Below are positions 9,341 to 32,208 of a DNA stretch of 32,208 nucleotides, in pieces. Positions within the stretch are counted from its first letter, which is position 1, and each line of letters starts with the position of its first letter. The notes beneath the pieces are model-generated. The model did not search any database and had not been told where the DNA came from. It saw only the letters and a list, made by a program, of their open reading frames with translations. The position numbers and the translations under genes are program-made. This DNA comes from Methylococcales bacterium. Its GTDB lineage: Bacteria; Pseudomonadota; Gammaproteobacteria; Methylococcales; Methylomonadaceae. The DNA is taken from assembly GCA_023134955.1 (NCBI GenBank), contig JAGLUC010000460.1, forward strand, positions 1-32,208. The letters run 5' to 3'.

Positions 9341-9355
9341 GTGACCTTATTCCTA

Positions 9356-9697: not shown

Positions 9698-9788
9698 GGG
9701 AATAACTCATAGGAATATTAGATGGGGTTATTATAGTCCTAATTAATCAAAATTGAATGGTTTTGACCTAATTCATGTCAAAAACACC

Positions 9789-10444: not shown

Positions 10445-10465
10445 TACCTCAAATAAAAATAAATA

Positions 10466-10485
10466 GCATATGCCTTGGCATATGC
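10466..10485. promoter_or_regulatory. Probable vapBC operator palindrome
   Basis: Perfect 9-bp inverted repeat gcatatgcc-tt-ggcatatgc just upstream of the vapB start. Confidence 0.55.
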
Positions 10486-10712
10486 ATATAATAAAAGCAT
10501 ATTACGCTTCAAAACTTATTGTTGCTGATGTTGAGTGCCTATCATAACGTAACCTCAGCAACTAGGAAAAAACCTAAAGGAAATGAAAAATGGTTTTTTA
10601 AAGCGCTGGTAATCAATGTGTGAAATGATAATTTCCGACAAATATAAAGTATTTCAATTGATTTCATAACAGTTCGTTTTATTACTTGTACAAAGCAACT
10701 CAGGCATATTAT

Positions 10713-11919: not shown

Positions 11920-11969
11920 GAACGCTGCATTCTGTTTTTTCTCGTTAAACCAAAAAACATCCTCATTTA

Positions 11970-13877: not shown

Positions 13878-15262
13878 ACAACAGAAGCCAAGGTTGTTTC
13901 ATTTATAATCGCATTTTGAAACTTGGAGTCCATACTCCCTTTAAGCTGTAACTTTATTGCAGCGACCTGCTGAGGACGAATATACTTTAGAACAGAAGGT
14001 TCTATACGCAACTTTCGACAGGCCATATCCCAATAACTGGAATGTAATCCCAACAGAATTGTGGTTCCACAGTTGGTCAAAAAATCTTCGGAAAAATGAG
14101 TGGGTGATTGAGATGCACACCACAAACCTAAGCCAAACTTACGCCCTTCTTTGGCAATAATGTTAATAATATTACCACTGTCTTCTGAAATAAATTTATG
14201 CGCTTCATCAACAAACACAATATGCTGTATATCAGATTTCACTCCAGAATCACGGCATTGCCTAAAAATGCTTTCTAAGCGCATGAAAACAAACATAGAC
14301 TGCTCATCATCACTAAGATGTTTTATTTGATGGCAACGCCCATTAGCATCACCAAAAGCGGGAGGGTTTGGGTGAAATATTCCCGTAGCATTAAGAATAT
14401 TTAAGCGTTCTAAAACGCTTTGCAATACCTCTTTGCTGTTATATTTCATCACACCACTGATTTCATTCCCTGATTCGATATGATCAACATAGACTTCGAA
14501 TTCCGCTTTAACTTTTGATTTTGCAACCTCTAATGCTTTTTCAGTTTTTTCGATCTGTGCATCTTGATTAGATTTACTATACTTTTGCAATGCTCGATTC
14601 AGCTGTTTAGCTAAATAATTAACTTCTTCCAGTACTAATACAGCTTTAATATTAGTGCCTAGATAGAGAGAGCTTAATTTTCGTTCTGCAAAACTAAGAA
14701 GGTCATCCATCACTGGATAATATTGCCTTAGACCTTGATAATCCCCCTGTTTAATCAGGCTGTTTCGAGCTGCACCAGTAATTTCTTTTTTTCGCCAGGT
14801 ATTTGGTTCACAATCATTACACCCATTGATCCTATAGACATCATTTAGAAGGTTTCTAAGAGCTGTTTCTTGTTTTGAACCTAACTGTCTGCTAGTCGTA
14901 TTAAGCATATTAATTATTTCATTAATCCGCCTACGAACACCACCAGAGTGAGGATCAGGACTAACTGAAAGCAGGTTAAAACCTAATTGAGTTGACTCTG
15001 AATACAGTGCAGATCTTATTCCTGACTGATCAAGTTCATTATGAACATCGAAAATATCGACTTCTAAATTCTGCTCAATTGCATTTGTTAATAAACGTTG
15101 TGCCTGATAGCTTTTGCCCGTACCCGACATGCCTGTTAATAAAAGGTAGCCATTAATTAATTCTTGAGTATTTATGACAATAGGTTGATTGGTATTTTTT
15201 TGTCGATACAAATATTCGTTTAATCCAAAAATATGTTTCAAAGCCGACTCCAATAAATCCAC
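13874..15262 (-). CDS. HerA/DUF87-like P-loop ATPase, putative mobilization partner
   Basis: Walker A GMSGTGKSYQ, Walker B HIVFVDEAHKF, GRKFGLGLWCASQSPTHFSEDFLTNCGTTILLG; overlaps the relaxase start by 4 bp. Confidence 0.75.
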   Translation of the reverse strand: MDLLESALKHIFGLNEYLYRQKNTNQPIVINTQELINGYLLLTGMSGTGKSYQAQRLLTNAIEQNLEVDIFDVHNELDQSGIRSALYSESTQLGFNLLSVSPDPHSGGVRRRINEIINMLNTTSRQLGSKQETALRNLLNDVYRINGCNDCEPNTWRKKEITGAARNSLIKQGDYQGLRQYYPVMDDLLSFAERKLSSLYLGTNIKAVLVLEEVNYLAKQLNRALQKYSKSNQDAQIEKTEKALEVAKSKVKAEFEVYVDHIESGNEISGVMKYNSKEVLQSVLERLNILNATGIFHPNPPAFGDANGRCHQIKHLSDDEQSMFVFMRLESIFRQCRDSGVKSDIQHIVFVDEAHKFISEDSGNIINIIAKEGRKFGLGLWCASQSPTHFSEDFLTNCGTTILLGLHSSYWDMACRKLRIEPSVLKYIRPQQVAAIKLQLKGSMDSKFQNAIINETTLASVV

Positions 15263-15729: not shown

Positions 15730-16263
15730 ATGTCTACCTGCAGCCCTAACTTTAACTATTCTGATTTTTCTCAATGCGGTGTTACTCAAGCGAGTTATCA
15801 GCTTAGCAATCAAGCAAAAGACTCACGCACCTTAGATGCTATTCAGCAAATATGCCTTGATGTATTGGAACCTGTTGTTAAACAATTTGGCTCTCTTACA
15901 CTTACCTACGGCTTATGTTCTAATGATTTACTTCTGCAAATCAAAAAACAGTCGTCTCCTGGTATTGCCCCACAACTTGATCAGCATGCGGGGTACGAAG
16001 TAAACTCACGAGGGAACCGCATTTGCAAACGTGATGGCTTTGCTTGTGATTTTCATGTGGTTGGCATTGACTCCTTAACGGTTGCACAGTGGGTAGTAGT
16101 AAACCTGCCTTTTGACCGTCTGTATTTTTACGGTAAAGATAGGCCCCTGCATGTCAGTATTGCCCCTGAAAATAATTATGCGATTACGCTATTAGAACAA
16201 GCACCTTCTGAGCGCCGCATCCCCAAAAACATTAAAAAAGACGCTTTTCTGCTCAAAGAGTGA
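15730..16263 (+). CDS. Peptidase M15-like domain protein
   Basis: 177 aa with spaced LDQHAGYEVN, GFACDFHV and DRPLHVS, resembling the H/D/H metal ligands of M15-type folds; 4 bp before the next gene. Confidence 0.6.
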   Translation: MSTCSPNFNYSDFSQCGVTQASYQLSNQAKDSRTLDAIQQICLDVLEPVVKQFGSLTLTYGLCSNDLLLQIKKQSSPGIAPQLDQHAGYEVNSRGNRICKRDGFACDFHVVGIDSLTVAQWVVVNLPFDRLYFYGKDRPLHVSIAPENNYAITLLEQAPSERRIPKNIKKDAFLLKE

Positions 16264-16267
16264 CGCT

Positions 16268-18307
16268 ATGAATGCGAATGACTTCAATCAACTCATCAAG
16301 AAAGTAAAACTGGGTAAGCTAGTGGGTAATGCTCGCTATTTACATCGCAGTGCATTTGATGAAATCCCAGCTGAATTAACCGAGTTCATTCAGCTTATTG
16401 CGACTGCCTTAAAGGTTCCTGAAAATGATTGGAACATCATTAAGCTGCATACTCAACAATTTCGCATCTCATATTTAAATTACCCTGATTTTCACAGTGA
16501 CTCTTACCCTGCTTTGCACAACAGCATTACCGTGAATTTAGTGACTAAGACGCAAAAAGTTGCTAATTACACTGAAACTGAAAATGCCCCTATCCTGCAT
16601 CGTAAAGAATTATTTATCAGTCCTAAAGATGAACATTATGCTGAATTTGTAAGCATTACTGAAGAAGGTGTAGCGGCAGGACTGTACGAAAACAGCCGTA
16701 TTATTGGCTTCAAAAAGTCATGGGAACGTGTCATTCACCAAAAGGGCTATCAATTAGTCGATGGTCGTCTGTTTCGCTTAAGTGCTCTTCCCCAGTCAAA
16801 TACGCCTGATAACAAAATAGACCGGCACAAAACTGCTATACAGCGGCAATCCTTATCGACACCGATGAAAACGCTTGCCAAGCATAATTATCTAAGTGGT
16901 GAGTACACCCTATTTGATTATGGCTGTGGGTTGGGTGATGATTTACGTGAATTAGAAGCCCATGGTATTGATGCAGCAGGCTGGGACCCTACACATAGAC
17001 CCGAGGTTGACCGCTTCTCTTGTGACTTGGTTAATATTGGCTTTGTGATCAATGTGATTGAAGACAGAGAGGAACGTATTGAAGCCATTCAGCTGGCTTT
17101 TGAACTCGCCGATAAGTTACTGGTTGTTTCTGCCATGATTGCAGGTGATGCCCATATACAAAAGTTCACACCGTATAAAGATGGTGTCATTACCTCATTG
17201 AATACCTTTCAAAAATACTTTTCTCAATCTGAACTTCAAGGCTTTATAGAGAATACGTTAGATGAAAATGCGATTGCTGTCGGTCCTGGTGTTTTCTTTA
17301 TATTTAAGGACAAACTAGAAGAACAACTCTTTTTAGCGAGCAGGCAAACAAGGCATCATAGCTGGAAGCAGATCACTACACGACCTACCAGCAGTAAAGA
17401 AAAATTTGAGTTGGTATATGTCGAGCATGAAGCGTTATTTAAAGCGTTCTGGAACACCTGTTTAATCTTAGGTCGTATTCCTGCTAATGATGAGTTTGAT
17501 GAATCTGACAAAATAAAACAACTGGCAGGGTCTCATCATAAAGTTTTCACCCTGCTCGACAACCTATTTGAAGATAATGAGTTTGTACAAGCAGAACAAT
17601 ACCGGAAAGAAGACTTACTGGTCTATTTTGCCTTATCCCAATTTGATAAACGAAAACCTTATACCCAACTACCAGATGAATTACAGCGAGATGTAAAAGC
17701 CTTTTTCGGCAACTATAATAATGCCCAAGCCATTGCTAAAGAACTACTCTACTCAATTGCTGATACAGAGTTAATTACTGAAACAAGCTTAGCGGCACAG
17801 CAAGTATTAACTGCCAGCCACTTACTAGAAAATCACTCACTGACTTTTCACAAAGACTTTTTAGTACTACTTCCCGCCCTACTGAGAGTTTACGTGGGCT
17901 GTGCCGTGCAAATGTATGGAGAGCTAGAAGATATTCATCTCATCAAAATTCATTTTCATTCAGGCAAAGTGTCTTTTATGGGGTATGATGATTTTGATAA
18001 TTTACCACTACCCTTATTAACAGAGCGCATCAAAGTTAAATTAGCACAGCAGCAAGTGGATTATTTTGATTATATTGAGGAATACACGCCTCAGCCGCTT
18101 TATTTCAAATCAAACTACATCACGGACAGCTACCCTAATTACAAAAAACAAGTCAGCTTTGATAAGAAAATAGCGCTATTTTTACCCGTTCATAACCGCT
18201 ATGGCATTAAACTTGATGCGTTGAATATAATACTTGATAACAACCAAACAGAGATTAAAGGATTTAGATTTTATGCTAAAAAGCAACTTACTCATACAAA
18301 AGGATAG
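16268..18307 (+). CDS. DNA phosphorothioation-associated putative methyltransferase (TIGR04096-like)
   Basis: 679 aa; RHKTAIQRQSLSTPMKTLAKHNYLSGEYTLFDYGCGLGDDLRELEAHGIDAAGWDPTHRP includes a SAM-binding motif, followed by VNIGFVINVIEDREERIEAIQLAFELADKLLVVSAMI. Confidence 0.8.
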   Translation: MNANDFNQLIKKVKLGKLVGNARYLHRSAFDEIPAELTEFIQLIATALKVPENDWNIIKLHTQQFRISYLNYPDFHSDSYPALHNSITVNLVTKTQKVANYTETENAPILHRKELFISPKDEHYAEFVSITEEGVAAGLYENSRIIGFKKSWERVIHQKGYQLVDGRLFRLSALPQSNTPDNKIDRHKTAIQRQSLSTPMKTLAKHNYLSGEYTLFDYGCGLGDDLRELEAHGIDAAGWDPTHRPEVDRFSCDLVNIGFVINVIEDREERIEAIQLAFELADKLLVVSAMIAGDAHIQKFTPYKDGVITSLNTFQKYFSQSELQGFIENTLDENAIAVGPGVFFIFKDKLEEQLFLASRQTRHHSWKQITTRPTSSKEKFELVYVEHEALFKAFWNTCLILGRIPANDEFDESDKIKQLAGSHHKVFTLLDNLFEDNEFVQAEQYRKEDLLVYFALSQFDKRKPYTQLPDELQRDVKAFFGNYNNAQAIAKELLYSIADTELITETSLAAQQVLTASHLLENHSLTFHKDFLVLLPALLRVYVGCAVQMYGELEDIHLIKIHFHSGKVSFMGYDDFDNLPLPLLTERIKVKLAQQQVDYFDYIEEYTPQPLYFKSNYITDSYPNYKKQVSFDKKIALFLPVHNRYGIKLDALNIILDNNQTEIKGFRFYAKKQLTHTKG

Positions 18308-18313
18308 TCATTA

Positions 18314-18887
18314 ATGCCTACATGCTGGATAATTTCTGGACCTAATGGAGCAGGAAAAACAACCTTTTCGCTTCAGTATTTACCCAAGGTAGTGGACTGT
18401 TTCACTTAATATTAATGCAGATTTAATCGCTGCAGGAATATCTCCTTTAGCACCTGAAAGAGAGCTTGTCGCAGCCAGTAAAATTTTCTTAAATGAAATC
18501 GAATCCTGTATTCAAAAAGAAGAAAATTTTGCGGTTGAAACAACATTATCAGGGCGCAGTTACCTTCGTATGATTAAAAGGTTAAAAAATACAGGCTGGA
18601 ATGTAGAACTTATTTATTTAGCATTACCCTCTATAGAAATGTCAAAATACCGTGTTGCCGAACGAGTTAAACATGGTGGTCACAATATTCCAGCAAAAGA
18701 TATTGAGCGCCGATTTTCTCGTAGCTTAAATAACTTATTAATTGAGTTTAGTGGCATTGTAGATAATTGCTTATGCTTTATTAATTCAGGTAAAGAACCT
18801 GTTTTAATATTTGAACAACAAGGCGAGCACCGCTATATCGCGGATGACTCTTTATACCAACTATTACTAACGTATTCAAAAAAATGA
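18314..18887 (+). pseudogene. Zeta toxin-like P-loop kinase, frameshifted
   Basis: [31 protein letters not shown] in one frame, then NINADLIAAGISPLAPERELVAASKIFLNEIESCIQKEENFAVETTLSGRSYLRMIKRLKNTGWNV... in the next; a one-base insertion near 18405 would explain it. Confidence 0.8.
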
Positions 18888-19060
18888 TGCCTACAAAAAA
18901 GCCCAGCTCAAAGAAAAGCCAGACTGTTTTAAACGCCTTAAAACAAGCAACTGCTGATGCGTTAGAGAAAAAACGACTCTTAGGACAGTATGCTGTATTT
19001 TGGGAGAATGGAGAAATTATTTATGAAGGTAAAGATGCCCCTGTTGTTAAAGACTCTTAA
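18884..19060 (+). CDS. Small putative antitoxin of the zeta-like module
   Basis: 58 aa: MMPTKKPSSKKSQTVLNALKQATADALEKKRLLGQYAVFWENGEIIYEGKDAPVVKDS*. Overlaps the toxin stop (ATGATG). Absent from the ORF track because of its length. Confidence 0.65.
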   Translation: MMPTKKPSSKKSQTVLNALKQATADALEKKRLLGQYAVFWENGEIIYEGKDAPVVKDS

Positions 19061-19089
19061 CCTTAGCACCCAGTCACCTAGAAAGTACA

Positions 19090-20253
19090 ATGAATAAACC
19101 TATCTATCTTGACTACGCAGCCACAACCCCTGTTGACCCGACCGTTGCGGATCACATGATGCAACATCTTACCCTAGATGGTATTTTCGCTAATTCCGGC
19201 TCAATACAACACGTCCTTGGTGAACAAGCTGATACCACTATTGAACAGGCACGTAACAGCATCGCCCAACGATTACACTGCAAAGCCAAGGAAATCGTCT
19301 TTACCTCAGGTGCAACAGAATCCAACAATCTTGCTATTAGAGGCATCGCCTATAGTCGCAGCACACAAGACAAGCATATCATTAGCTGCCTAACTGAGCA
19401 TAAAGCAGTGCTAGACACCTGCAAGCAACTGGAAAAAGAAGGTTACAACCTCACTTACTTAAAGCCGAGCATTAACGGACTTATTGATCTTGATGAGCTA
19501 AAAAATGCAATCACTACAAAGACTATATTAGTCTCGATTATGCATGTTAATAATGAAACAGGTATCATTCAAGACATCCCTGCTATTGCAAAAATAACCC
19601 AAGAGAATAAGGTTCTTCTCCATGTTGATGCCGCTCAAAGTGCTGGGAAACTACCTATCAATCTAAGCGAGCTACCGATAGACTTACTCTCCCTCTCCGC
19701 TCATAAGTTTTATGGCCCTAAAGGTATCGGCTGTTTATTTATCCGCAATCGCGCAAAAATGCACTTACAAGCACTGACACAAGGTGGTGGGCAAGAATTT
19801 GGTTTACGTCCTGGTACATTAGCCACTCATCAAATAACTGGTATGGCTAAAGCACTTGAACTAGCTCATCAGCAGATGGATAAAGAACAACAGCAAGCTA
19901 AAACATTACAGCAGCAATTTCTGACCCAGTTGCACCCATTAGGTGGCATAACTATTAATGGTGAAATAGAGCACAGCCTTCCCAACATCCTTAACCTAAG
20001 TTTTGATAATGTTGGCGCAGATACGCTATTGACTGCATTAAGAGATAAAGTAGCCGCCGCCTCTGGCTCTGCCTGCAATTCAGGCGCTATTGAAGCATCT
20101 TATGTTTTAAGAGCAATGGGCATTGAAGGCGACCGACTCTATTCCGCTGTAAGATTCAGTTTTGGGCGCTACACAACAGAGAAAGATATCAATCAAGCCG
20201 TCGCCATTGTGAGCGAAGAAGTCCGGCGACTTAGGCTGTTGGCGGAAGGTTAA
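19090..20253 (+). CDS. dndA: Cysteine desulfurase, DndA/IscS-like
   Basis: 387 aa; IYLDYAATTPVDP, FTSGATESNN, PLP lysine region SLSAHKFYGPKGIG, catalytic Cys loop SGSACNSGAIEASYVLRAMG. Island location favours a DndA-like role; the DndA versus IscS call is by context. Confidence 0.85.
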   Translation: MNKPIYLDYAATTPVDPTVADHMMQHLTLDGIFANSGSIQHVLGEQADTTIEQARNSIAQRLHCKAKEIVFTSGATESNNLAIRGIAYSRSTQDKHIISCLTEHKAVLDTCKQLEKEGYNLTYLKPSINGLIDLDELKNAITTKTILVSIMHVNNETGIIQDIPAIAKITQENKVLLHVDAAQSAGKLPINLSELPIDLLSLSAHKFYGPKGIGCLFIRNRAKMHLQALTQGGGQEFGLRPGTLATHQITGMAKALELAHQQMDKEQQQAKTLQQQFLTQLHPLGGITINGEIEHSLPNILNLSFDNVGADTLLTALRDKVAAASGSACNSGAIEASYVLRAMGIEGDRLYSAVRFSFGRYTTEKDINQAVAIVSEEVRRLRLLAEG

Positions 20254-20339
20254 CACCTGCAAAACAACTTAATAAATTGATGTTGCGCAGAGCTCGAAAC
20301 AGTATACTTACAGCTGGATGGCTTCATAAAACTTATCAA

Positions 20340-22493
20340 TTAAATTTTTTTACGTTCCACAAAAAATTCCTGAGTAGGCACCTTAACGCCACCTGAGTCT
20401 AGGTGGTACTTCTCAAATAGAGACTTAGTTTCTGTGGTCAGCCAATGAGTTTCTAACCCTGAGTTATCCAGAAAATCAAAAGAGGTATACATAGGCTTAT
20501 TAGATTTAGCCATATTTTCACTTCCAGGCATAGGAAACATATTCCCTAAGGCATTCACATCGTCATCACGAGAGATTTCGCCATATTTATAATATGCAGA
20601 CTGTACTGCTCCTTCTGGACTAGATGGTTCCATATGATCAAGATGCATGTCTTGAATTTCCTTAGGCTTAAGGCTTAGTGAAAATGCTGCTTCCTTTAAG
20701 CATCCATTACCATCTAAATCTAGCTGCAACAAGCGGTAAAATAAGACCTTAACTCTCACCTCATTACTCCTATAACGCCATGGGGTTAACCAACTTTCTA
20801 AAGTCTTCTTATCAAGGCTTACACTATTAGGAATTAGTGACTCCGATCCTACCTTATTCGCCTTAATAATATGATTTGCCATATCTTTAGCCGGCTTATA
20901 GTCAGGAGCCATTAAGGTCGTTTTCCAGAAAATTCTAGCCTGCTCATGCACCTCTAGGTGCTTAGTATTATCACTAACTAATTCCTCTAAAACCTTCTTA
21001 GCAATATCAGTACTAAATACCTGAGTGTGATTTAACTTAATATATTGCAAAATAAAACTGACTAGCCCCGACAAAACTCCTTCATGGCCTAAAGCAAGAA
21101 GTAAATGTACCGTCTTAAAGGTATCCGTTTTATCAGAGAATTCAGCCTCTAAAGCTTTATTTACACGCCCATTAGCTTTTAACTTGAATATATCCAGAAA
21201 CTGTCGAATACACTCAAAAATGGAAAAGTCTTTATGTAAATCTTTACATGAATACCGGTCTTTATACCCATTTAAATAATCTTTAATTGCATCCCTAAAT
21301 TTATCATGGGACTTCAACCCTATTTTTGTAGACCCCGTTAAATAAGTCGTTGCTAAAAAGGCAATTAATTTATTATTTGTATCCGTGTTATTTTTAAAGA
21401 CCTTGTCTCCCCACTGCTCTTCCCTAGCAACAATTTCCTTATCAATATCTTCATCACTAATATTTGTGTTTTTACTAGAAATACATAAAGAGCGATAAAA
21501 TTGATTTTTCACCAAGTCCAGATCATCTAACGCCAAAGACCGATCATTCAATACCTCAAATAAAGTATAGGCATCTTCAGAGTTTCCTGTTTGAATAACA
21601 CAAAGCTTGACCCCCTCCAAAAATGCAACAGCAGAGTCAATAATTGAAAGCGAGGTTTTAAATGGTGAGAGTGTTCTCCCCTTACTTCTTATCTTGCTTA
21701 TTTCAACTAGTGAATCAAAAATTTGCTCAACAGCGTTTAGGTACACTGATTCAATACACTCATTAGTTAAGTTAGACCGGTCAACCTCGACTTTTAACGC
21801 ATGCTGACTATCACTCCTAACAATGATTCGTGATAATGCCTTGCATAAAGATAAATTATATGAGTTGCGATCATACGATAACCTAGGCAAGTAAACTTCA
21901 GTAAACGTTAACAGTTTTGCAATATATCTTTCAGAAAAGTCCTCTTCGGATTCTGGTTCACTAGGTAAATGAACAATTGATAAATATTCGTCTAATATTT
22001 TTTGCAACGCAGTCTCATTTGAATCACTTCCAGCATCAAAAGATTCTTCAAGATCATCTATATCAATAATTTTCGGTATATCTTTGGTGACAGCATACTT
22101 TATTGATGTATTAAATTTATCTAGTAAGCCTGAAATTGCAATTTGTTGCTTACCAACTAAAGCCTCTCGTATAGTCGTGCGTAATAATAGAAAAAGTAGA
22201 AAGTTGGTTAAATAGATTGTTGTAAATCGTTGTTGTCCATCAATTAGCTGATGCAATAACACATCGGCCTTAGAGGTACTGACAGTAACAATAGAGCCCG
22301 CAAAATACTCACCATCAGTATTTTTCTGATTCTCTAGGCTCCAATCATCTAAAAGTTGCTTAACAATATCCTTTCCCCATTTATAAGGGCGCTGATAATG
22401 TGGAATTCTAATATCACCAATAGTTTCATCATTTGTACCAATATCACAACTTAACTTATAAAAATTTCTTACTTCAGCGCCCTTTAAATCCAT
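20340..22493 (-). CDS. DUF262-DUF1524 protein, GmrSD/SspE-like nuclease
   Basis: N-terminal IRIPHYQRPYKWG and LIDGQQRFTTIYL; C-terminal HLDHMEPSSP...NALGNMFPMPGSENMAKSNKP resembles a DUF1524 HNH-type domain. Confidence 0.8.
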   Translation of the reverse strand: MDLKGAEVRNFYKLSCDIGTNDETIGDIRIPHYQRPYKWGKDIVKQLLDDWSLENQKNTDGEYFAGSIVTVSTSKADVLLHQLIDGQQRFTTIYLTNFLLFLLLRTTIREALVGKQQIAISGLLDKFNTSIKYAVTKDIPKIIDIDDLEESFDAGSDSNETALQKILDEYLSIVHLPSEPESEEDFSERYIAKLLTFTEVYLPRLSYDRNSYNLSLCKALSRIIVRSDSQHALKVEVDRSNLTNECIESVYLNAVEQIFDSLVEISKIRSKGRTLSPFKTSLSIIDSAVAFLEGVKLCVIQTGNSEDAYTLFEVLNDRSLALDDLDLVKNQFYRSLCISSKNTNISDEDIDKEIVAREEQWGDKVFKNNTDTNNKLIAFLATTYLTGSTKIGLKSHDKFRDAIKDYLNGYKDRYSCKDLHKDFSIFECIRQFLDIFKLKANGRVNKALEAEFSDKTDTFKTVHLLLALGHEGVLSGLVSFILQYIKLNHTQVFSTDIAKKVLEELVSDNTKHLEVHEQARIFWKTTLMAPDYKPAKDMANHIIKANKVGSESLIPNSVSLDKKTLESWLTPWRYRSNEVRVKVLFYRLLQLDLDGNGCLKEAAFSLSLKPKEIQDMHLDHMEPSSPEGAVQSAYYKYGEISRDDDVNALGNMFPMPGSENMAKSNKPMYTSFDFLDNSGLETHWLTTETKSLFEKYHLDSGGVKVPTQEFFVERKKI

Positions 22494-22659
22494 GTTTGAC
22501 TCCTACATAACTTGCTTAAATTTATTAAAAAAATTGCTGTTCTTTCAGGTTAGGAACGTGCATGAAATAACTTCGATAACTTGATTTAAAAACTTTGATA
22601 ACCCAAGGCTTCTAATTTTGAGTTGCCTTGCTTAATTCGTGCACGATCCTTAGTAACCC

Positions 22660-24066
22660 CTAATAACTCAACTTCATCACCCGCTTATCACCACCAAACT
22701 CACTTGGATTAAGCTCAGCTAATTGATCCCTAACTCTCTGCCTTAAATCTTTAGCGGGAGCCATAACATACTCTTCATAACCTGGATCATCAGGATTTAA
22801 CAGCAATAATTTAGACAACGCTGAAGCCAATCGAGTAACCGCTTTTACATCGCGACTATCCCCTTTGAGGGTAGGCACTACACCATAGGGGAATTCAACA
22901 TGACTCACCAATCGTAGTTGGTGTAAAAACTGTCCGAAAACATCGGCCTTAATACCGTAACCATGTGCTGCAGATTCCGTTGTGAAACGTGGTATTTTCC
23001 AGCCTGGAATAATGCCATGAAACCGATCTAATAACGCATCATCTTGGAACATTTCAGGTAAACTTTTAATATAGTCTTGCTGTCGAGGCAGACCCTCATG
23101 AATACCAATATTAGCTAGTACAATCAAACCGCACTCGCTCGTTATTTTTTCTTGGCCCACACTATATTGTCCAGACTCTAAAAAGTCTTTAAATTTGGCA
23201 TGGATATCATCCGCACCTTTAAAGTTAATTGACTGCCCTTCATCTAAAACCAATAAATCATATTTCCCAATAAGCCCCACTTCCTTGGTAGATAGATTCA
23301 TAAACAACTGTGCCTGAGTTAAAGCTCCACCACTATTTAGCCATGTATAACGACTTAAATTTGAATAAATATATGATTTTCCTGTCCCTTTAGGGGCTAG
23401 CTCCATCATATTTAAATTATTTTGCACTAACGGTAGTAATCGCAACAACACATTATTTTGCTGTTCATCACTATAAGCGGAAGGTTCATACCCCATAGTT
23501 CGTAGCAATAATGCAATCCACTCTCGTGTACTGAACTCCTTTCTCGCATTAATTAACTGCTCCAAGCGTACCGATCCAGACTGCATAGGGTGAAATTCTA
23601 TTAATTCAACCACATTAGTTTTACCTTCCTCTCGCACAGCAAGTCGCCCAGCCCCCCACTGCCCACCCTCTAGCAATGAATCATTATTTTCTAAAACTTC
23701 ACTAGTCACATGTGCATTGCGCTCATCAATACAGGGAATAGCAATTAATTTCTTATCATTTTTAATATCAATCCTTGCATCAAATCGATCTAACAATACG
23801 ACCGACTCGTTTCTCTGTAATTGATATTTAATTTTTTCTTTTTCAGTTTTTGCCGGTAAATGCTTGCTCATAAAGCTTGTAATATCGTTGTAGACCTCAG
23901 CATTTGATTTATTAGGCTCTTGAAAACGTGAAATCAACCACTCTTCAACAAAACTGGGAATCGTTCGCTTATCACGAATTTTTAATTGCCTGACCAACGC
24001 TTTATCAATCGTTAGTTCACTAAAATTTTCTAGTATTTTAGTATCTAATTCTTCTTTATTAATCAT
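22660..24066 (-). CDS. brxL: BREX BrxL-like AAA protein without a Lon protease domain
   Basis: NNLNMMELAPKGTGKSYIYSNLSRYTWLNSGGALTQAQLFMNL, LLVLDEGQSINF; 468 aa ending just after the AAA region. Confidence 0.87.
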   Translation of the reverse strand: MINKEELDTKILENFSELTIDKALVRQLKIRDKRTIPSFVEEWLISRFQEPNKSNAEVYNDITSFMSKHLPAKTEKEKIKYQLQRNESVVLLDRFDARIDIKNDKKLIAIPCIDERNAHVTSEVLENNDSLLEGGQWGAGRLAVREEGKTNVVELIEFHPMQSGSVRLEQLINARKEFSTREWIALLLRTMGYEPSAYSDEQQNNVLLRLLPLVQNNLNMMELAPKGTGKSYIYSNLSRYTWLNSGGALTQAQLFMNLSTKEVGLIGKYDLLVLDEGQSINFKGADDIHAKFKDFLESGQYSVGQEKITSECGLIVLANIGIHEGLPRQQDYIKSLPEMFQDDALLDRFHGIIPGWKIPRFTTESAAHGYGIKADVFGQFLHQLRLVSHVEFPYGVVPTLKGDSRDVKAVTRLASALSKLLLLNPDDPGYEEYVMAPAKDLRQRVRDQLAELNPSEFGGDKRVMKLSY

Positions 24067-26346
24067 CTAAAACATTCCCTCAAACCCTTGTGTTGCCGAA
24101 TCTATACTAATTAATGGCTCTGGTAAAAAACAAGAAAAAACTTTTGAATTAACCTCATGCGCTCCCTCCCTGTCATAACTTAGCTCTATGGCTAATTCAA
24201 TCATACCGACCTGCTCGTTATCGGAAGAAAAGTTTAGAAGCAGGCGACGAGATTCCCCTTTAGACATTGCTGTTGTTGATGCTTCTCCTATAAGAGGGAA
24301 CTTGAATTTCCATTTAATATTTTCAACAAAAACATCTGCGACTAATTCAGCCTCAATTTGCCACGATTTATCATTAATACGCTGGCACTTATCACTTAAA
24401 ATATTGACCATGAGTGGTGTGACACCTGCTTCAGCGTGTTTGGAAGAGAGCGTAACAAATGGAATCAACACTTCCTCAGGCGTTAACCCACCATGTGTTA
24501 GTAACGCGTCATCCGTTAACCCCACTCTTTCCTTAGGCACCAAATAAGATTTCTTTCCACCAGAATTAATGAATGCAAAACCTTCTGGCTCTTGCCCATA
24601 ATCACAAGGAACAGAAAAAACTCGCTCTTTGGTATCACCTAATTTATCACCCTGATATTTTGACCGAGTCACCGTCATACCATGATCAGCGGTAATTAAA
24701 AACACCACATCCCGATGTAAGTAAGCAGCGTCTTTACTCCAACGCTCTACCGACTCCATCAGCTGCCGTAAAACCAATGAAACATCTTTTCTATGCTTCT
24801 CAAAATCAACGCAGTCATGTAAGCGCTCATCAATTCTATTCTCGAAAAAAACCAGTAAATTTGTTTCTTCTTTGATGTGCTCTTTTTTAGATTCCTGCCA
24901 ACTTTTAACAACCCTCAAAGAATCCTGCTCGGGTAAATACTGACCATACACTTGTCGTATTGCCATTTCTTTATCGCTCGGTAACTTACTGGTCTCTTTT
25001 CCCGTTATCAGCGCCATTTTTCCAACTTCAGTTAAGGTAGGTAAAGGCGAAAATAAGGTTTCACTGCCTAACGATAGATGATTAACCTTAGAGGCACTTT
25101 CAAGCAATAAATCCTGATTTAAGGCTGAAAGCGCATCAACCATGCAAACAACAACTAAGTATCCTTTTTCAAGGTACTTATCAACGCGTGTAGAAAACTG
25201 CCTCCAATCCGATTCCGAGCGCGCGATACGCGCTGACTGAGCGAGCAACCAATGGGAAAAACTTAAATTTAAAGTATTATCAACAGCTTGCTCAGATAAA
25301 AACTGCTGCCGGATAAAATCAAAATAACCTTGGCTCCATTTATGCACCTCACTCATCGTAGAACTCTGAGATAACACTCCAAATTTTGAACGATCCAAAA
25401 TACCTGAGAACTCAACAGCGTACTGATTGACTAACTCATCATCAAACTCTGCCAACTTACTGATAAGCTCATCAGATATATAGCTTATATTATTCTGTAC
25501 TAGCTCATTTAACCGCATTAAAACCAATGGCCATGGTGCAATAACTAACTCAGCCAAGACCATTACTTCCAACTCTCCTTTATCAACTAAGCGATAAGAC
25601 CTTTCAATAGCCTCTATACACTTAACAGGTAAATCCTTTGCCCTCGCTTCAGATAACTCCAACAAAGGTAATTCAAGTAATAAGGTTGATAAAGACCTAG
25701 CTGGCAGGGCAATATTAAGGTGGAATTTAGAAATATTTTTACGCAACAATTCTTGGTGCTGCTCATAAGCAAGGCTAGCAATAAAGGCAGGAACAGACTC
25801 AGACTGTAATAAGTCATGAATGAATCTCTCAGACAACTCTTCTGATAAATTAAACTCATGTTTTAAATAGGTGATGAAATAAGACTTCACCTCACTTTCT
25901 TTAAATATCACCCAAAACGCATTACTCTGATTAAGAAGTGCCTGTGAAAAACACACAAAATCTTTTACCATAAGCCCTGCATCAACGCTCATGACAATAA
26001 TATCAATGAGACTCAAGTCCGTTAGATCTTCCGGTATCTTATTCAATAACGCTAGCTGAATAATAAGCTCATCCGATAACCAACTGGGTAAATTCTGTTG
26101 CACTAAATGCCGATAAACAACCCGTGGAATTAAATACTGCGTAGGAAAAACACCATCTAAGCCTTCAAAATAGCCAAAACTATTAAAAACAGCCTTACTG
26201 CTAAATCGCACTCGCAAAACATCATTAGTATCACTTTTTAAATGCTGATTAATGGTATTCCTTAATGAATCTACCTTATCGTAATGGGCTGTTAAAGCTT
26301 CGTCAGCATCAATATTAAACGGGTCAAAAACAAACTGAACGCTCAT
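24067..26346 (-). CDS. pglZ: BREX PglZ-like alkaline phosphatase-fold protein
   Basis: 759 aa; VVCMVDALSAL, VVFLITADHGMTVTRSKYQGDKLGDTKERVFSVPCDYG, LTHGGLTPEEVLIPFV. Confidence 0.88.
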   Translation of the reverse strand: MSVQFVFDPFNIDADEALTAHYDKVDSLRNTINQHLKSDTNDVLRVRFSSKAVFNSFGYFEGLDGVFPTQYLIPRVVYRHLVQQNLPSWLSDELIIQLALLNKIPEDLTDLSLIDIIVMSVDAGLMVKDFVCFSQALLNQSNAFWVIFKESEVKSYFITYLKHEFNLSEELSERFIHDLLQSESVPAFIASLAYEQHQELLRKNISKFHLNIALPARSLSTLLLELPLLELSEARAKDLPVKCIEAIERSYRLVDKGELEVMVLAELVIAPWPLVLMRLNELVQNNISYISDELISKLAEFDDELVNQYAVEFSGILDRSKFGVLSQSSTMSEVHKWSQGYFDFIRQQFLSEQAVDNTLNLSFSHWLLAQSARIARSESDWRQFSTRVDKYLEKGYLVVVCMVDALSALNQDLLLESASKVNHLSLGSETLFSPLPTLTEVGKMALITGKETSKLPSDKEMAIRQVYGQYLPEQDSLRVVKSWQESKKEHIKEETNLLVFFENRIDERLHDCVDFEKHRKDVSLVLRQLMESVERWSKDAAYLHRDVVFLITADHGMTVTRSKYQGDKLGDTKERVFSVPCDYGQEPEGFAFINSGGKKSYLVPKERVGLTDDALLTHGGLTPEEVLIPFVTLSSKHAEAGVTPLMVNILSDKCQRINDKSWQIEAELVADVFVENIKWKFKFPLIGEASTTAMSKGESRRLLLNFSSDNEQVGMIELAIELSYDREGAHEVNSKVFSCFLPEPLISIDSATQGFEGMF

Positions 26347-26351
26347 TCAGC

Positions 26352-29300
26352 TCACCTCTTACAATCGTCTAAAAGGCTTTCAAGTAAACTCACAATATCC
26401 TGATTAGATAACCCTGACTGTTGCAAAGCTATTCTAACTTGCCCCTTAACTTTATCAACTGGTTGAGGTTCATCGATCTCAGATGTTGTCCCTGGAAATA
26501 TATCTGTAAATGATGAAGAATCACCATAATCAGACTGCCCCTTTATAAAAGGTTGAACACTCTCTTTAGTAGGCTCCCTTCTTTCCGGTTCAGGCATTCT
26601 TGCCTGCTCAAATAAGGACTCTAATACACCGGTACAGCGACCAATATCCGAATCTGAACACTCACTAAATTTCTTAGCTAACAACTGATGAATAACGGCC
26701 TTAGGCGATACATCATCGGCAACTTCAGCACCTTCAAGTAGCCCAATTAACTGATTTGATTGATGGGTATTAATAGACTGTAAACGAGAAATAATGGCAT
26801 GACGCTCCTCAGAGTTATCTGGAAAAACATCAACCCAGCAGGCTTTTATCTCATGTAATTTAGCATCTTCAACACGCGAAAAATCATCAAAGACCGTTCT
26901 AACCGCATCCAAAACTTTCTGTATATTTTGTGTATCGAGCAAATCTCTCTTGATATCGAATAATTCAATTAAAAAACCAGCTAGGTCTTGAGGTGTTTTT
27001 CCTTTTTCTTCAATAAATTTAACTAAGCTCTGTGTTTTCAGACCAAGTTTATTAGACTGCTTTACTCCTTCCGGCTTATTCTTAATAAAGTCACTCAAGG
27101 CACTCGCACATAACGGAGCATATTCTTCATTAGACACCCCCTCAACTTGCTCAACCTTAAGAATCCGTCCGACTAAAAATAAAACCGAAAATTGCTTTTT
27201 ACTAAACTCAAATAACTGAACCGTTAATTTACTACCTTTAGTAAAGGCATCCACTAATGTTTTAGCAAACTCGGCATCTTTTTTCTGACTTCCCCAGCGT
27301 AAACGTTTGACCTCCTGCCGAATAGAAACGGCAGCAAAGAGAGGTAAAGTACAAGCAGGCAACCCATAAGGCGGTGCAATTAATTTATTTCTTAATTCAC
27401 TAACAATATACGGATTTTCACGTTTTCTAAGCAACGTATCATGTAATAACTTTAAAATCTCACGTAGCTTACCCTGAGTCTCTTCCGCTGATTTGATCCC
27501 TAAGCCACTTGCCTGTTGAACAAATAATGAATTAGCGCCTAATATGCCGTCAATTAAAGCCGACAGCTCACTCGTTTCTTTTGCCTCACCTAATAAATCC
27601 GTTTGATACGTTGGATTTTCATCAAACTCTAAAATACGCTCAACAATTTTGACTAACTTCGAGCTGCCTGAATACTTCTCGTCCCGCAATACATTCATAT
27701 TCATCGCCCTAATAGGCAACTCATGACTATAAAGCTGATTAACTTCCTGCTCTAAATACCCTTTAAATCCATGCCAGCTAAGACAATCAATAGGATCAAC
27801 AGCCCCCGACTTAAAAACCTTACATTGCGCAGACTCTAATCCCGATCGACCATACAACACCTGAAGCATCGACTTAATAGCATTACGGTTACTTTCACCT
27901 TTCGCCTCCAGTTGTCGCTTCAAATCTTCTGACAGCGCCGATCCTTGTTTTAATTGATCCGCAATTGCTAAATAACGGCACAGCAAATCATTTAAATGAT
28001 AACTAACACCATTTTCAGTATAAGTCTGTACCTCAATACCCTGCACCGGCATCCAAAAATAGATATTTTGGTTAGCCATCTCCTGTATTCTCGCCTTAAC
28101 TGTCAGCACCTCTTCTTTTGTCTGAGCTAATACCAGAAAGACACGAGCAGAAATTAAAGAGTCTTTCAATTTAATAGACTCTGGCGCAAAAGGAGCGGTT
28201 AATAATTCAACTGAAAAAGAACGAATAATACCGCAAGCTGAAGGCTCTAAGTCATGCAGGTCAAGCGTGGGCAATAAATCTTGCTGCATTAACGGATAGC
28301 TTTCAAATAAATATTGATAAGAACGCCCAGAAAAATATTTAGTCCCCTTTTCAATAAGAGCATCAATATCAACCCCACCTTCTCCTGCTAATGACCAAAA
28401 ATGATTCGCCGTATTCTTCCAAATAACACCCGCTGCTTTTAACCAAGATAAATGCTCATTCAGCGTATGAGACGCAGGCGTATTAGAGAGCGAGTCGTAA
28501 AGCGTGCAGGCCAAAAAGTCTTCACTCGCCTTAAAGGACTCACCTAATAATTGCGCTAATAACAAAGAGCTTAAAATATCTTTACGAATAGCAACCTCAT
28601 GCACATCACCACTGACACAAGCCAGTGCCTGCTCATAACGCCGCCAATCACTGCCTGATTCTTTCTTTATACTTTCTTCATAATAATGCAATAAATGAGG
28701 GAAACGAATTAGCTCCGATTGCCACAACAGACCATCCCTTAACTCCTTATTTAAGATGTCCCCTGCATTCTCACGAAAAAAGGTTAATGCTGTTCTATTC
28801 GCTTGTGCTAATTTAGAAAAATTAAACAGGCCGACTGCCATTAAAGGATGCAAAGGGTACACATCCTCAAATAATGATTCTAGCTCTGTACTTAATGGAT
28901 GAAACACAGGCAATCGCTGACATGCTTCCACTAGTTTCGCTTTTTCAGATTGGCTCTCTATTAAAAGCTTACGCCCCTCCTCAGACCAAACCTTTTGCAT
29001 CCCCAGCAGATGATAGCCATCACTCTCAGCCGCATTCAGTTCTATTTTAAAAGGCTTATTAAAGCGCCCTGAAATTTTCTCTAAACCTTCTTTAATGGTA
29101 TCCGATGCATTAGTTCTGCTGGCATACTCAGGAAATGAAACATGCGATACCCCAAAAAATAAAGTATGTCCCACATCTGGTGAGCAGCAGGTTTCTACAA
29201 AATGCTGTAAGCTGATAATTTCTTGCCCAGCATTACGAGCAGGGTTACCAATTAACTCTTCTAACGCATTACCAAACTCATCCCACAGAACAACAATCCC

Positions 29301-30077
29301 ACCATAGTTATACTTTTCAGCAAGATTTTTTCCCGCTTCCGAATACGCTTCAATAAAATTTTTACCGCCTGCCTGAGCAACATTGAAAACACTGCCGTGG
29401 CACACATTTTTATGCCACTGCAAAAAAGCATCTAACGCCAGAGGTTCATGCTCCCTTAAAGCCAAGATTAATTCAGTGGTCGTGAAATAACTATCAATAC
29501 TCCACTGAGACAAATCAGCATCAATAAAAGCAGCATCAAGCGCTAACAATTCTTCGAAGCGTTCTACACATACTTCATATTCTGTCGAGAATAGGATTTG
29601 CTTAATATCTAAGCTTTTCTCTCTTTGTAATGCATCATACAAACCCTCCATTAATTTATCGCCTAATGAAGTTGTACCTGATGCATACAAAGACACTAAC
29701 AAATAGGGTTTAGTATCTTCATTTTCTTTTGGTAAAAAAGTAGTTTGCAATGAATTGGCTAAATCTTCATTGCCTGTATGCCTAATTCTATCCGCTAACC
29801 GATTAAAGCCATCCGAACTTGCCCCATCACGTAATAATTGCGCTAACACCACCGCTAAGTGACTTTTTCCCGAACCATAGCTACCATACAAATTAATAGC
29901 ACGCTGTTGTTGTGCCGCTTCAGGTAGCACGGCTTTGCAAACATGCCTAAAAACCTGAATGGCCGATTGGGTGGGCATATAGCTGCCGACTAATGAATTA
30001 TCAGAAATCCCTTGATCCAACAAAATAGCTGCATTATTTTGATCCGTATTAATACGGATTACATCATGTAGGTTCAT
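26352..30077 (-). CDS. brxC: BREX P-loop protein BrxC/PglY
   Basis: 1241 aa; INLYGSYGSGKSHLAVVLAQLLRDGASSDGFNRL, GGIVVLWDEFGNALEELIG; DUF499/PglY-like size and layout. Confidence 0.88.
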   Translation of the reverse strand: MNLHDVIRINTDQNNAAILLDQGISDNSLVGSYMPTQSAIQVFRHVCKAVLPEAAQQQRAINLYGSYGSGKSHLAVVLAQLLRDGASSDGFNRLADRIRHTGNEDLANSLQTTFLPKENEDTKPYLLVSLYASGTTSLGDKLMEGLYDALQREKSLDIKQILFSTEYEVCVERFEELLALDAAFIDADLSQWSIDSYFTTTELILALREHEPLALDAFLQWHKNVCHGSVFNVAQAGGKNFIEAYSEAGKNLAEKYNYGGIVVLWDEFGNALEELIGNPARNAGQEIISLQHFVETCCSPDVGHTLFFGVSHVSFPEYASRTNASDTIKEGLEKISGRFNKPFKIELNAAESDGYHLLGMQKVWSEEGRKLLIESQSEKAKLVEACQRLPVFHPLSTELESLFEDVYPLHPLMAVGLFNFSKLAQANRTALTFFRENAGDILNKELRDGLLWQSELIRFPHLLHYYEESIKKESGSDWRRYEQALACVSGDVHEVAIRKDILSSLLLAQLLGESFKASEDFLACTLYDSLSNTPASHTLNEHLSWLKAAGVIWKNTANHFWSLAGEGGVDIDALIEKGTKYFSGRSYQYLFESYPLMQQDLLPTLDLHDLEPSACGIIRSFSVELLTAPFAPESIKLKDSLISARVFLVLAQTKEEVLTVKARIQEMANQNIYFWMPVQGIEVQTYTENGVSYHLNDLLCRYLAIADQLKQGSALSEDLKRQLEAKGESNRNAIKSMLQVLYGRSGLESAQCKVFKSGAVDPIDCLSWHGFKGYLEQEVNQLYSHELPIRAMNMNVLRDEKYSGSSKLVKIVERILEFDENPTYQTDLLGEAKETSELSALIDGILGANSLFVQQASGLGIKSAEETQGKLREILKLLHDTLLRKRENPYIVSELRNKLIAPPYGLPACTLPLFAAVSIRQEVKRLRWGSQKKDAEFAKTLVDAFTKGSKLTVQLFEFSKKQFSVLFLVGRILKVEQVEGVSNEEYAPLCASALSDFIKNKPEGVKQSNKLGLKTQSLVKFIEEKGKTPQDLAGFLIELFDIKRDLLDTQNIQKVLDAVRTVFDDFSRVEDAKLHEIKACWVDVFPDNSEERHAIISRLQSINTHQSNQLIGLLEGAEVADDVSPKAVIHQLLAKKFSECSDSDIGRCTGVLESLFEQARMPEPERREPTKESVQPFIKGQSDYGDSSSFTDIFPGTTSEIDEPQPVDKVKGQVRIALQQSGLSNQDIVSLLESLLDDCKR

Positions 30078-30095
30078 TACTTTTCCTTAATAAAA

Positions 30096-30563
30096 TTAAT
30101 CAGCACGCGCAGGTCGCCATACTTTTATAGCAAGGCCATCGAGTGGTTTATCTTTAAAATAAGCATTATTAATGGTTTGGAATTCATCACTCTCAGCAAA
30201 CACTAGCACAATCTTTTTTGTACTGTGCCACATCCCAATAGCAGACCAAAAAGCTTGCTTTTCCAATAATGACCATTGATTTAACCACTGCTCCGGCTGA
30301 TGAATAACCACACCTTCTTCTGGAATTTTTAATATTTTTTCTTCAAAGCGCTTACGAGAAACAATAAGTTCAGGGGTAGACTGCATTTTGGGCTGCTGCC
30401 AAAGCGCATAGCGAGGTAATAAAGCGCGAAGTGTCTGGGTTACATCATCAAGATCACGTAAACTTTTACTTGAAAACCCCACATTACAATACCGAAGGGT
30501 ACTCTCTGAATGATATTGATCAAGAGTCTCTTTCAATGTTGTATTTAGAAAATTTAAATCCAT
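30096..30563 (-). CDS. Uncharacterised BREX-4-associated small protein
   Basis: 155-aa ORF within the tight co-directional operon; no recognised domain. Confidence 0.75.
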   Translation of the reverse strand: MDLNFLNTTLKETLDQYHSESTLRYCNVGFSSKSLRDLDDVTQTLRALLPRYALWQQPKMQSTPELIVSRKRFEEKILKIPEEGVVIHQPEQWLNQWSLLEKQAFWSAIGMWHSTKKIVLVFAESDEFQTINNAYFKDKPLDGLAIKVWRPARAD

Positions 30564-30575
30564 TCGTATTTCCTC

Positions 30576-31445
30576 TTATAACCAAGTATCTTGGCCCTTT
30601 TGCAATAACTCTAATAAAGTTCGGTTTGGCTCACAGGAATCTTTAAAAGTAATTGACTCTAAATCAACAGCGTAATCAAAACTAAAATGCCCTTGCCATT
30701 CGCTCATGGAGCTTATCCGCTGTAAATTTTTCCTTAACTCCTCTTTTGAGCAGCATAGGAAATTAGGCAGCCCTGTTGATGCTAGTTCAGAAAAACTAAT
30801 AGAATCACGACTTTTAAAGTGTGAAAAACGGACAAGCGCTAGTCCATGCATAAAAATTTCATCTGATAAGAGCGGGCTTCCTAGTCGAATCACTGCGCCG
30901 GAATTATGAGCACCACTATTAATCTCGACTAAGCCCAGTTCCGCTAGTGGGTTATCACCTTGGAACATCCTTCTAACACCGCCGAGCAAAGATTCAATAG
31001 TTGAGTTTTTATACTGTTTACCAGATAAGTCAATTAAAGCGTTCTGTGTTTTTTTTATTACTTGAACCCAATCACTCCAGTCTTTAGTGGCTGTTTCTAA
31101 ATTTAGAAAAAAAATAGGATAAGGCTCGCTATCTTCAGAAAAACAAAGTGATAAGTGAAATGCCCACCACGTTGAAGATTTAATTAAACTGGGGTCATTA
31201 GTAAAGATAGAAAGCCCGAACTCTGTTAATTCATATTCTCTAGGGCTTCTTTTATTTTCGATCAGCCTAGAAGACACCATCCAGGACTTAATTGTTGTAA
31301 TCCTATTCGCACCAGCTATAAACTTTAACCTAGCTTCACGCATTTTTGATTTTGTAAAAATATCCCTTTCAGTTCTAACTACTTCCAGCCCTTTACTAAC
31401 CCACCATCTAGTAACAGGCTCACCTTCATTATTCATTAGTGCCAT
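30576..31445 (-). CDS. DUF4007 family protein
   Basis: RWWVSKGLEVV, FIAGANRITTIKSWMVSSRLIE, YELTEFGLSIFTNDPSLIKSSTWWAFHLSLCF follow the DUF4007 layout; directly downstream of a PAPS reductase-like gene. Confidence 0.72.
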   Translation of the reverse strand: MALMNNEGEPVTRWWVSKGLEVVRTERDIFTKSKMREARLKFIAGANRITTIKSWMVSSRLIENKRSPREYELTEFGLSIFTNDPSLIKSSTWWAFHLSLCFSEDSEPYPIFFLNLETATKDWSDWVQVIKKTQNALIDLSGKQYKNSTIESLLGGVRRMFQGDNPLAELGLVEINSGAHNSGAVIRLGSPLLSDEIFMHGLALVRFSHFKSRDSISFSELASTGLPNFLCCSKEELRKNLQRISSMSEWQGHFSFDYAVDLESITFKDSCEPNRTLLELLQKGQDTWL

Positions 31446-31506
31446 TTTTATTTCCTTTAACTTTGAGCTCGTATATAGATTTAAAAAAGTTTATCTGTCG
31501 AAGGGG

Positions 31507-32208
31507 CTATTTGAAGCACACCAAACAACCATCATCGTCATCGTCATCGTCATCGTCTAAGACAGCACCCAAGAAACTTGTATTTTTCTTGTTGGGGTTA
31601 ATTTCTTTAAATTTTTCTTTAATCTCATCTTTTCGGGCTAGCATTTCATCTAATGATTCATCCTGAGACCAAGTATGATTGCGACCTAAATTTTTATGAT
31701 AAAGCTCAAACTCCCTTGCCTTTTCAAAAAATTCCGGATGATTTTCATGCAACCCTATCCACTCAATTTTTCTCTGATAAAAACAAAAATAACACCCTGA
31801 ACGACTACGCCATTCGTAATACTTAGGCATCCCAAGACCAGACTCATCAAGTATCTTAACTATATCTTCTTTGTTTTTGCCATCTTCTTTGAAAGGATAG
31901 ACAGCACTAATATTTGGTTTTGTTGATATATAGCCTGTTCTATAAGCTTCATCTGCTCGAATGGCAACATAACTAATCACAGGATCATCACCAACAAAAT
32001 TCTCAAAGGGCTTTAACTTTAAGTTAGTCGTGCACCAGCGCGATCGAGCGGTAGGTAAAAAATTACCATTCAACTTTAAATAGTAATCAAAGCCTCTTCC
32101 AGAATTCAATCTAGTAATAGGCTTACCCAAATAATCTTCCATGAGATCAACAAATTCTAAAGTCTCTGGTAATTCAGCACCCGTATCAGCAAAAAAATAT
32201 TCCATTTC
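31507..32208 (-). CDS. PAPS reductase-family protein (BrxP/DndC-like), 5' end beyond window
   Basis: YFFADTGAELPETLEFVDLMEDYLGKPI, ARSRWCTTNLKLKPFENFV, SGCYFCFYQRKIEWIGLHENHPE and C-terminal GCLVCFK. The expected N-terminal PP-loop (SGGKDS) lies past the window end. Confidence 0.82.
   Translation of the reverse strand, partial: EMEYFFADTGAELPETLEFVDLMEDYLGKPITRLNSGRGFDYYLKLNGNFLPTARSRWCTTNLKLKPFENFVGDDPVISYVAIRADEAYRTGYISTKPNISAVYPFKEDGKNKEDIVKILDESGLGMPKYYEWRSRSGCYFCFYQRKIEWIGLHENHPEFFEKAREFELYHKNLGRNHTWSQDESLDEMLARKDEIKEKFKEINPNKKNTSFLGAVLDDDDDDDDDGCLVCFK
31531..31557. repeat. Hexanucleotide-type microsatellite encoding a 9-Asp tract
   Basis: atcatcgtcatcgtcatcgtcatcgtc on the plus strand; minus-strand codons gac/gat alternate to give DDDDDDDDD. 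Confidence 0.9.

Follow-up and report, generated by a model that had tools for sequence, protein, structure and literature searches.

The Ssp cassette and the BREX-like core

We analysed a 32,208-nucleotide contig (JAGLUC010000460.1; C402) of a Methylococcales metagenome-assembled genome (MAG; G000), hereafter the window, which carries a putative defence locus where genes of the Ssp DNA phosphorothioation pathway lie beside genes of the bacteriophage exclusion (BREX) type. The operon continues on a second contig, C296 (locus label L008), whose end is identical to the last 150 bp of the window (an exact 150-bp overlap). Joining the two contigs completed sspD (266 aa) and added full sspC1 and sspB1 genes upstream, and the join is supported because relatives show the same gene order. 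The joined minus-strand operon reads sspB1-sspC1-sspD-sspB2-p155-sspC2-pglZ-brxL, followed by a DUF262 gene, and it faces a plus-strand set made up of sspA, a gene for a TIGR04096 methyltransferase and a small gene encoding 177 aa. An earlier reading of the letters of the window (the original prediction) had described a BREX type 4 core linked to a phosphorothioation gene set and ending at 32208. All the genes it had named lie in the places it gave, most of them matched by Pfam, PADLOC or NCBIfam profiles, and its minus-strand genes held, but the operon does not end at 32208, since C296 adds the start of sspD, sspC1 and sspB1.

The first set corresponds to the Ssp modification cassette. The sspD gene (31507–32208, minus strand, its 5' end cut by the contig end) encodes a sulfur transferase of the phosphoadenosine phosphosulfate (PAPS) reductase fold that matched the PADLOC SspD model at 2.3e-94 and the BrxP model only at E=0.005. 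The protein is short (266 aa) and unfused, and its SGGKDS and GCxxC motifs were kept in all 24 relatives compared. SspC1 (1139 aa; L008 8822–12241; PADLOC SspC, 1299 bits) and SspB1 (311 aa; L008 7890–8825; PADLOC SspB, 3e-92) matched the Ssp modification models over nearly their whole length. On the facing strand, sspA/dndA (19090–20253, plus strand) encodes a cysteine desulfurase (PADLOC SspA 508 bits, DndA 495 bits; profile 5e-153) with both the pyridoxal-phosphate lysine motif and the Cys loop. The gene set by which Ssp systems are recognised, SspB, SspC and SspD in order with SspA or IscS, is therefore present at the locus. In profile scans, no DndB, DndC, DndD or DndE was found among the window proteins, which bore out the absence of DndB, DndD and DndE noted earlier; the sulfur enzyme is of the SspD type, and the DndC-DndD-DndE set that characterises Dnd systems is absent from the window.

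The second set begins with sspB2 (30576–31445, minus strand), a second DUF4007 gene in a BrxA-like slot (Pfam DUF4007 1e-18; weak SspB match, 5e-14, 50 bits), whose product could be aligned with SspB1 only over a short stretch with 26% identity. The second ATPase gene, sspC2/brxC (26352–30077, minus strand), is of the BREX-core type (SspC 4e-47, 159 bits; BrxC 1e-10), with Walker A and B intact in 28 of 29 relatives. The pglZ gene (24067–26346, minus strand) encodes an alkaline-phosphatase superfamily protein that is likely the nuclease effector; its matches to Pfam PglZ (2.5e-4) and NCBIfam BREX_PglZ_4 (4e-12; 45.5 bits, below the cut-off of 140) were weak, and its ADHG and HGGxTPEE motifs were kept in 36 and 37 of 37 relatives, respectively. 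The AAA+ protein gene brxL (22660–24066, minus strand) was matched strongly (Pfam BrxL_ATPase 3e-94 and BrxL_N 3e-25; PADLOC BrxL 6e-112). PglZ, a BrxC-like ATPase and BrxL thus occur in one operon, as in BREX systems generally, with weak or divergent PglZ and BrxC matches.

The small protein p155 (30096–30563, minus strand) had no real match in Pfam, NCBIfam or PADLOC. Its AlphaFold2 model, a confident one (pLDDT 90.5), is an alpha/beta fold; the best PDB matches were AAA+ proteins, with LAP1 and the AAA+ domain of Sir3 at the top of the list but at no better than E ~0.01, and Walker A was absent from all 29 homologues. BrxB and BrxF are STAND/ORC-like AAA+ relatives, BrxB lacking Walker motifs (PMC12839542), and PglZ is bound by BrxB (PMC12205998). 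Because an AAA+-like fold without Walker A parallels these described features, p155 is taken as a probable BrxB/BrxF-like pseudo-AAA+ component. Comparison by hhalign gave matches that are suggestive at best, to the P-loop small proteins that occupy the same slot in Chloroflexota loci (weak, E 0.023) and to the small proteins of Bacteroidota loci (E 0.5). SspB2, p155, BrxC, PglZ and BrxL together look like a complete BREX core without PglX.

Separate origins, conserved linkage and a sulfur-binding domain

The two sets have separate origins. In an ATPase tree of 57 sequences, every SspC1 joined the SspC proteins of BREX-free Ssp loci (support 99), and the gammaproteobacterial SspC2 proteins formed their own clade (support 100) apart from all modification SspCs; the deeper joins and the long branch of the Thermomicrobium SspC2 are uncertain. 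Pairwise identities were strongly correlated within sets (SspB1-SspC1, r=0.97; SspC2-PglZ, r=0.97) and less so between sets (0.67–0.72). In genome G622, sspB1-sspC1 has been swapped for a distant version with the rest kept (approximately unbiased test, p=3e-4), and the SspC1s of the dual systems together are not one clade (p=9e-5), which indicates that the writer is an exchangeable cassette and that the two sets are separable modules. A second set was absent from seven other gammaproteobacterial SspBCD loci, whose neighbouring genes also differed. In a Chloroflexota MAG (L121), the order DUF4007 - 152-aa protein - BrxC-like - PglZ - BrxL follows an MmeI-like methyltransferase, not SspBCD, and therefore the effector set is not tied to sulfur chemistry as such.

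The layout of that MAG (L121:1–13093) is shared, by gene order, with further Chloroflexota and Rubrobacter MAG loci (L120, L131), which read MmeI/DrmMI-like methyltransferase (scanned in L121 only) - DUF4007 - small P-loop protein - BrxC-like - PglZ - BrxL. Such loci are perhaps an unclassified BREX type.

Linkage of the two sets is conserved among relatives. Of the 311 genomes of the order, 33 carried PglZ of this kind, but the class-wide sample of 369 genomes had only 2 carriers, this genome included; the closest relatives of the window PglZ are from Methylococcales (a MAG with 92% identity and a Methyloprofundus MAG with 80%). In 24 loci the sequence extended 9.8 kb or more upstream of pglZ; of these, 16 kept all six upstream genes, and the others were split, decayed or cut. 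The gene order holds down to about 25–30% protein identity, so that the arrangement is far beyond chance. It recurs in purple sulfur bacteria, Venteria and Vibrio, where an intact copy is likewise faced by sspA, the methyltransferase gene and the small gene; in a Flavobacterium the two sets are divergently oriented. The megaplasmid of Thermomicrobium roseum DSM 5159 (NC_011961, TRD_RS09730–09770) carries an intact copy in which these nine genes, the desulfurase among them, keep their order, and its PglZ fits a PADLOC PglZ model end to end; unlike the window locus, its very divergent sequences form one co-directional operon, annotated in the record only gene by gene. Where 8 kb or more of downstream sequence was available (15 loci), SspA and/or the methyltransferase lay nearby in 10, a moderately positive outcome for the survey of linkage between the two gene blocks that the original prediction had proposed.

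Although separable, the sets stay together. The sspB1-sspC1 pair was not seen next to the core in seven genomes and was present elsewhere in five of these, and in four of the five the single SspD stayed with the BREX core. Both genomes without the pair are damaged: G630 has a split sspA, and G580 lacks SspD and has lost Walker A from its SspC2. The latter (L013/L041), from a Bathymodiolus methanotroph symbiont, has neither SspD nor SspC1 in its genome and retains sspA and the methyltransferase, an apparent case of a locus decaying in a symbiont. In Methylotuvimicrobium buryatense 5G (G249, L010 4706–8542), a transposase gene cuts sspD at residue 216, and sspB2 (with the sulfur-binding domain described below), sspC2, pglZ and brxL look intact.

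Additional genes were observed within or beside some of these operons. In Vibrio sp. PID17_43 (L180 12916–16209) the composite operon is immediately preceded by a second sspD and a gene for a 754-aa DUF262-like protein; one writer may therefore serve two types of effector there. In Candidatus Venteria ishoeyi (L099:3230–4114), a sulfur-binding-domain/HNH nuclease gene lies between sspC1 and sspD.

In several relatives, the second DUF4007 protein is extended at its N-terminus by a domain some 155 residues long, and in others this domain is encoded by a separate gene immediately upstream. The domain is homologous to solved sulfur-binding domains (SBDs): its profile matched the ScoMcrA SBD bound to phosphorothioate DNA (5ZMO) with E=1.1e-10 and the SprMcrA domains at about 1e-6. 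In the model of a Thiocystis fusion, the N-terminus matched 5ZMO with a TM-score of 0.82 by target length, and the DUF4007 part matched SspB crystal structures. The reported cavity residues of the ScoMcrA SBD, H116, R/K117, Y164 and P165 (PMC6224610), were kept as HK..YP in 7 of 12 SBDs of relatives. SBDs occurred in 15 of 33 core carriers compared with 9 of 278 other genomes of the order (Fisher p=6e-11; related genomes are not independent), and none was ever found on SspB1. In G565 and G571 the SBD is interrupted by a transposase gene, and a remnant is left in G460. We consider this SBD on the second DUF4007 protein of many relatives the best candidate reader for the system.

Six of the nine SBDs in non-carriers belong to open reading frames of 779–786 aa, and the one checked (G553) lies directly after sspD. 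In the BREX-free Ssp loci of G553 (L203) and of G199 (outside the order; L166–L167), the protein directly after sspD has about 780–790 aa and carries an N-terminal SBD and a P-loop (GHAGDGKST) NTPase-like region. It is a candidate for an unrecognised effector partner of SspBCD.

Facing, accessory and neighbouring genes

The methyltransferase gene of the facing set (16268–18307, plus strand) matched the NCBIfam family TIGR04096, phosphorothioation-associated putative methyltransferases, at 7.8e-206, and its S-adenosylmethionine motif was kept in 12 of 12 sequences. The 177-aa protein (15730–16263, plus strand), earlier called M15-like, had no Pfam or NCBIfam match; a separate gene in the window, it has its homologue in the C-terminal part of the methyltransferase in M. 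buryatense and other relatives, where the two are fused. Between the methyltransferase gene and sspA lies a frameshifted zeta-toxin-like kinase gene (18315–18887, plus strand), followed by a small open reading frame; its frame break was read directly from the sequence, and it is not part of the system.

The GmrSD/DUF262 protein (20340–22493, minus strand; GmrSD_N 1.4e-26, weak GmrSD_C) carries the DGQQR and DHxxP motifs and resembles SspE weakly (PADLOC SspE 1e-13); it aligned with the V. scophthalmi DUF262 protein at 35% over only 84 aa. Its slot is occupied in relatives by other GmrSD proteins, a kinase, a SIR2-STAND protein or a PLD-helicase. We therefore rejected the proposal that this DUF262-DUF1524 protein reads the mark as a general part of the core, and regard it as an optional accessory restriction factor. 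No SspFGH model was matched among the scanned window proteins.

An integrase, a TraI-like relaxase, a HerA-like ATPase and toxin-antitoxin genes occupy positions 8852–15262 of the window, and C296 (L008 1–6519) carries apparent conjugation genes, judged by reading only. These mobility genes suggest that the locus sits in an integrative conjugative element. The HerA-like ATPase (13874–15262) was considered as DndH/SspH and rejected, being a neighbour of the TraI-like relaxase. Searches of plasmids by tblastn with PglZ or p155 gave nothing useful, and no PglZ was found in viral contigs.

Proposed mechanism and relation to known systems

The reading we favour, by a modest degree, is a composite defence system in which SspBCD writes the mark and a separate BREX-core effector spares marked DNA. 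SspA would draw sulfur from cysteine and SspD would carry it, and SspB1 (DNA binding and nicking) and SspC1 (ATPase) would place it in the host DNA backbone, as in known Ssp systems. The effector would be the core without PglX, composed of the BrxA-like SspB2, the pseudo-AAA+ p155, BrxC (SspC2), the predicted nuclease PglZ and BrxL, which would inspect DNA for the sulfur mark and block unmarked phage DNA. In many relatives this check could be made through the SBD on SspB2. The chemistry, the direction of the check (the mark protects) and phage defence at this locus are what we infer. The original prediction was right to tie a BREX-like core to a desulfurase-fed sulfur-marking pathway and wrong or incomplete in making a BREX-4 core itself the writer, a role that would fall to the SspBCD cassette, which has a DUF4007 protein and an ATPase of its own.

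An SBD effector with its own writer cannot be triggered by marked DNA alone, because the host would be attacked; docking on the mark should therefore either restrain the core or need a second signal. Restraint appears to us the better choice, ahead of SspE-like licensing. Several observations weigh against the favoured reading. An SBD is missing from the window SspB2, and genome G000 yielded none elsewhere. In the other 5 of the 12 SBDs, the cavity reads YK with YA or HA, alanine replacing the essential proline. SspD identity is intermediate, tracking SspB2 (r=0.85) as closely as SspB1 (0.82), and G630 keeps the core and SspD without SspC1. The cut sspD and intact-looking core of M. buryatense 5G warn against a strongly self-toxic core, and are at odds with a killing action on unmarked self DNA unless SspBCD is also required for the core to fire.

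M. buryatense is better accommodated if the mark licenses the effector and does not protect the host, the core being active only when docked on phosphorothioate DNA and then acting on nearby phage DNA or on replication: with SspD damaged, such a core would be silent, not self-killing. SspE, the best-studied Ssp effector, likewise depends on the mark for its activity (PMC8092258, PMC9646914). Marked DNA is bound by the SBD (PMC6224610), and SBD proteins follow SspD in the Ssp loci of G199 and G553. BREX systems known so far, however, spare modified DNA, and a protective mark is the better fit for those relatives of the core that are coupled to a methyltransferase, so we hold this mark-sensing scheme to be possible and distinctly the weaker of the two.

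It is less probable still that SspB2-SspC2 acts as a second writer, adding phosphorothioate at another motif, a task that BrxP/BrxC must perform in canonical BREX-4. Each locus has one SspD, which adjoins sspB2 in the split genomes and co-varies with SspB2, and canonical BREX-4 has a single DUF4007/ATPase set. Such a second writer would have to work without the polar N-terminal residues (H18, T20 and R24 of SspB1) that nearly all SspB proteins keep and SspB2 has lost, a point that speaks against it and is not decisive. In Chloroflexota this core has a methyltransferase as its partner, and the SBD on SspB2 looks like a reader.

For type 4 itself (brxPCZL), phosphorothioate use, SspB/SspC/SspD homologues and a frequent desulfurase have already been published (PMC12839542, PMC11931770, with Yuan et al. 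as cited in them). A PAPS-reductase-fold sulfur enzyme, DUF4007, BrxC, PglZ and BrxL are BREX-4 components, and a type 4 desulfurase was reported in 56% of taxa (PMC12839542); the locus shares these elements, BrxL included. Nevertheless, an ordinary canonical BREX-4 system is very unlikely. The canonical loci that the BREX_PglZ_4 model identified (G1104, G1158) have one 786-aa BrxP, one BrxC, PglZ and BrxL, a layout confirmed by PADLOC in G1158 (BrxP 958 bits, BrxC 2619 bits), and canonical loci in Bacteroidota have one fused BrxP and one ATPase, whereas here there are two complete sets: a full SspBCD cassette and a second DUF4007 protein, p155 and a second ATPase. BrxP is a PAPS reductase with an extra Fe-S domain and a fused DUF4007, which the unfused SspD does not match (2e-94 for the SspD model against 0.005 for BrxP), and PglZ, below the BREX_PglZ_4 cut-off, and SspC2 are far from the type-4 models. 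The earlier BREX type 4 label was thus rejected on layout and profile scores, and the locus, with its two sets, is a variant distinct from canonical BREX-4. The least likely reading, that two independent defence systems merely happen to be neighbours in an island, is suggested by the apparent mobile element (integrase, TraI-like relaxase) and the independent replacement in G622 and disfavoured by an order conserved from Methylococcales to Vibrio, Chromatiales and Thermomicrobium and a pair retained even when unlinked.

Compared with SspABCD-SspE and SspABCD-SspFGH, the modification cassette (SspA, SspB1, SspC1, SspD) is the same, and the putative effector is a BREX core instead of SspE or SspFGH. 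BREX types 1 and 3 share the BrxA-like, BrxC, PglZ and (type 1) BrxL roles and, if p155 is what we take it for, the BrxB/BrxF-like role, but the locus has no PglX/PglXI methyltransferase and its mark would be sulfur. The SspB2 N-terminus in relatives is an SBD like those of the type IV enzymes ScoMcrA and SprMcrA, fused here to an SspB/BrxA-like DUF4007 and not to SRA-HNH, and lacking in the window copy. Pairing of SspBCD with a BREX core was not found in the literature text searched, nor were the double set and the SBD on the BREX DUF4007, supplements and the main BREX-4 paper lying outside that search. We tentatively propose, at slightly less than even confidence, an undescribed BREX variant that marks its own DNA by an exchangeable SspBCD cassette and whose core, methyltransferase-coupled elsewhere, reads sulfur through an SBD on the BrxA-like DUF4007 protein.

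About 80% of sspBCD cassettes have been reported to lack SspE or SspFGH (PMC8092258), and pairing with a BREX core may account for some of these. In BREX, PglX usually entangles the functions of writer, reader and effector, which has kept the way these systems tell marked and unmarked DNA apart from being settled. In this family the writer would be a separate, independently studied cassette, and the reader domain of many relatives has known structures; with the writer separate and the reader domain on one core subunit, writer, reader and effector could therefore be deleted or swapped singly.

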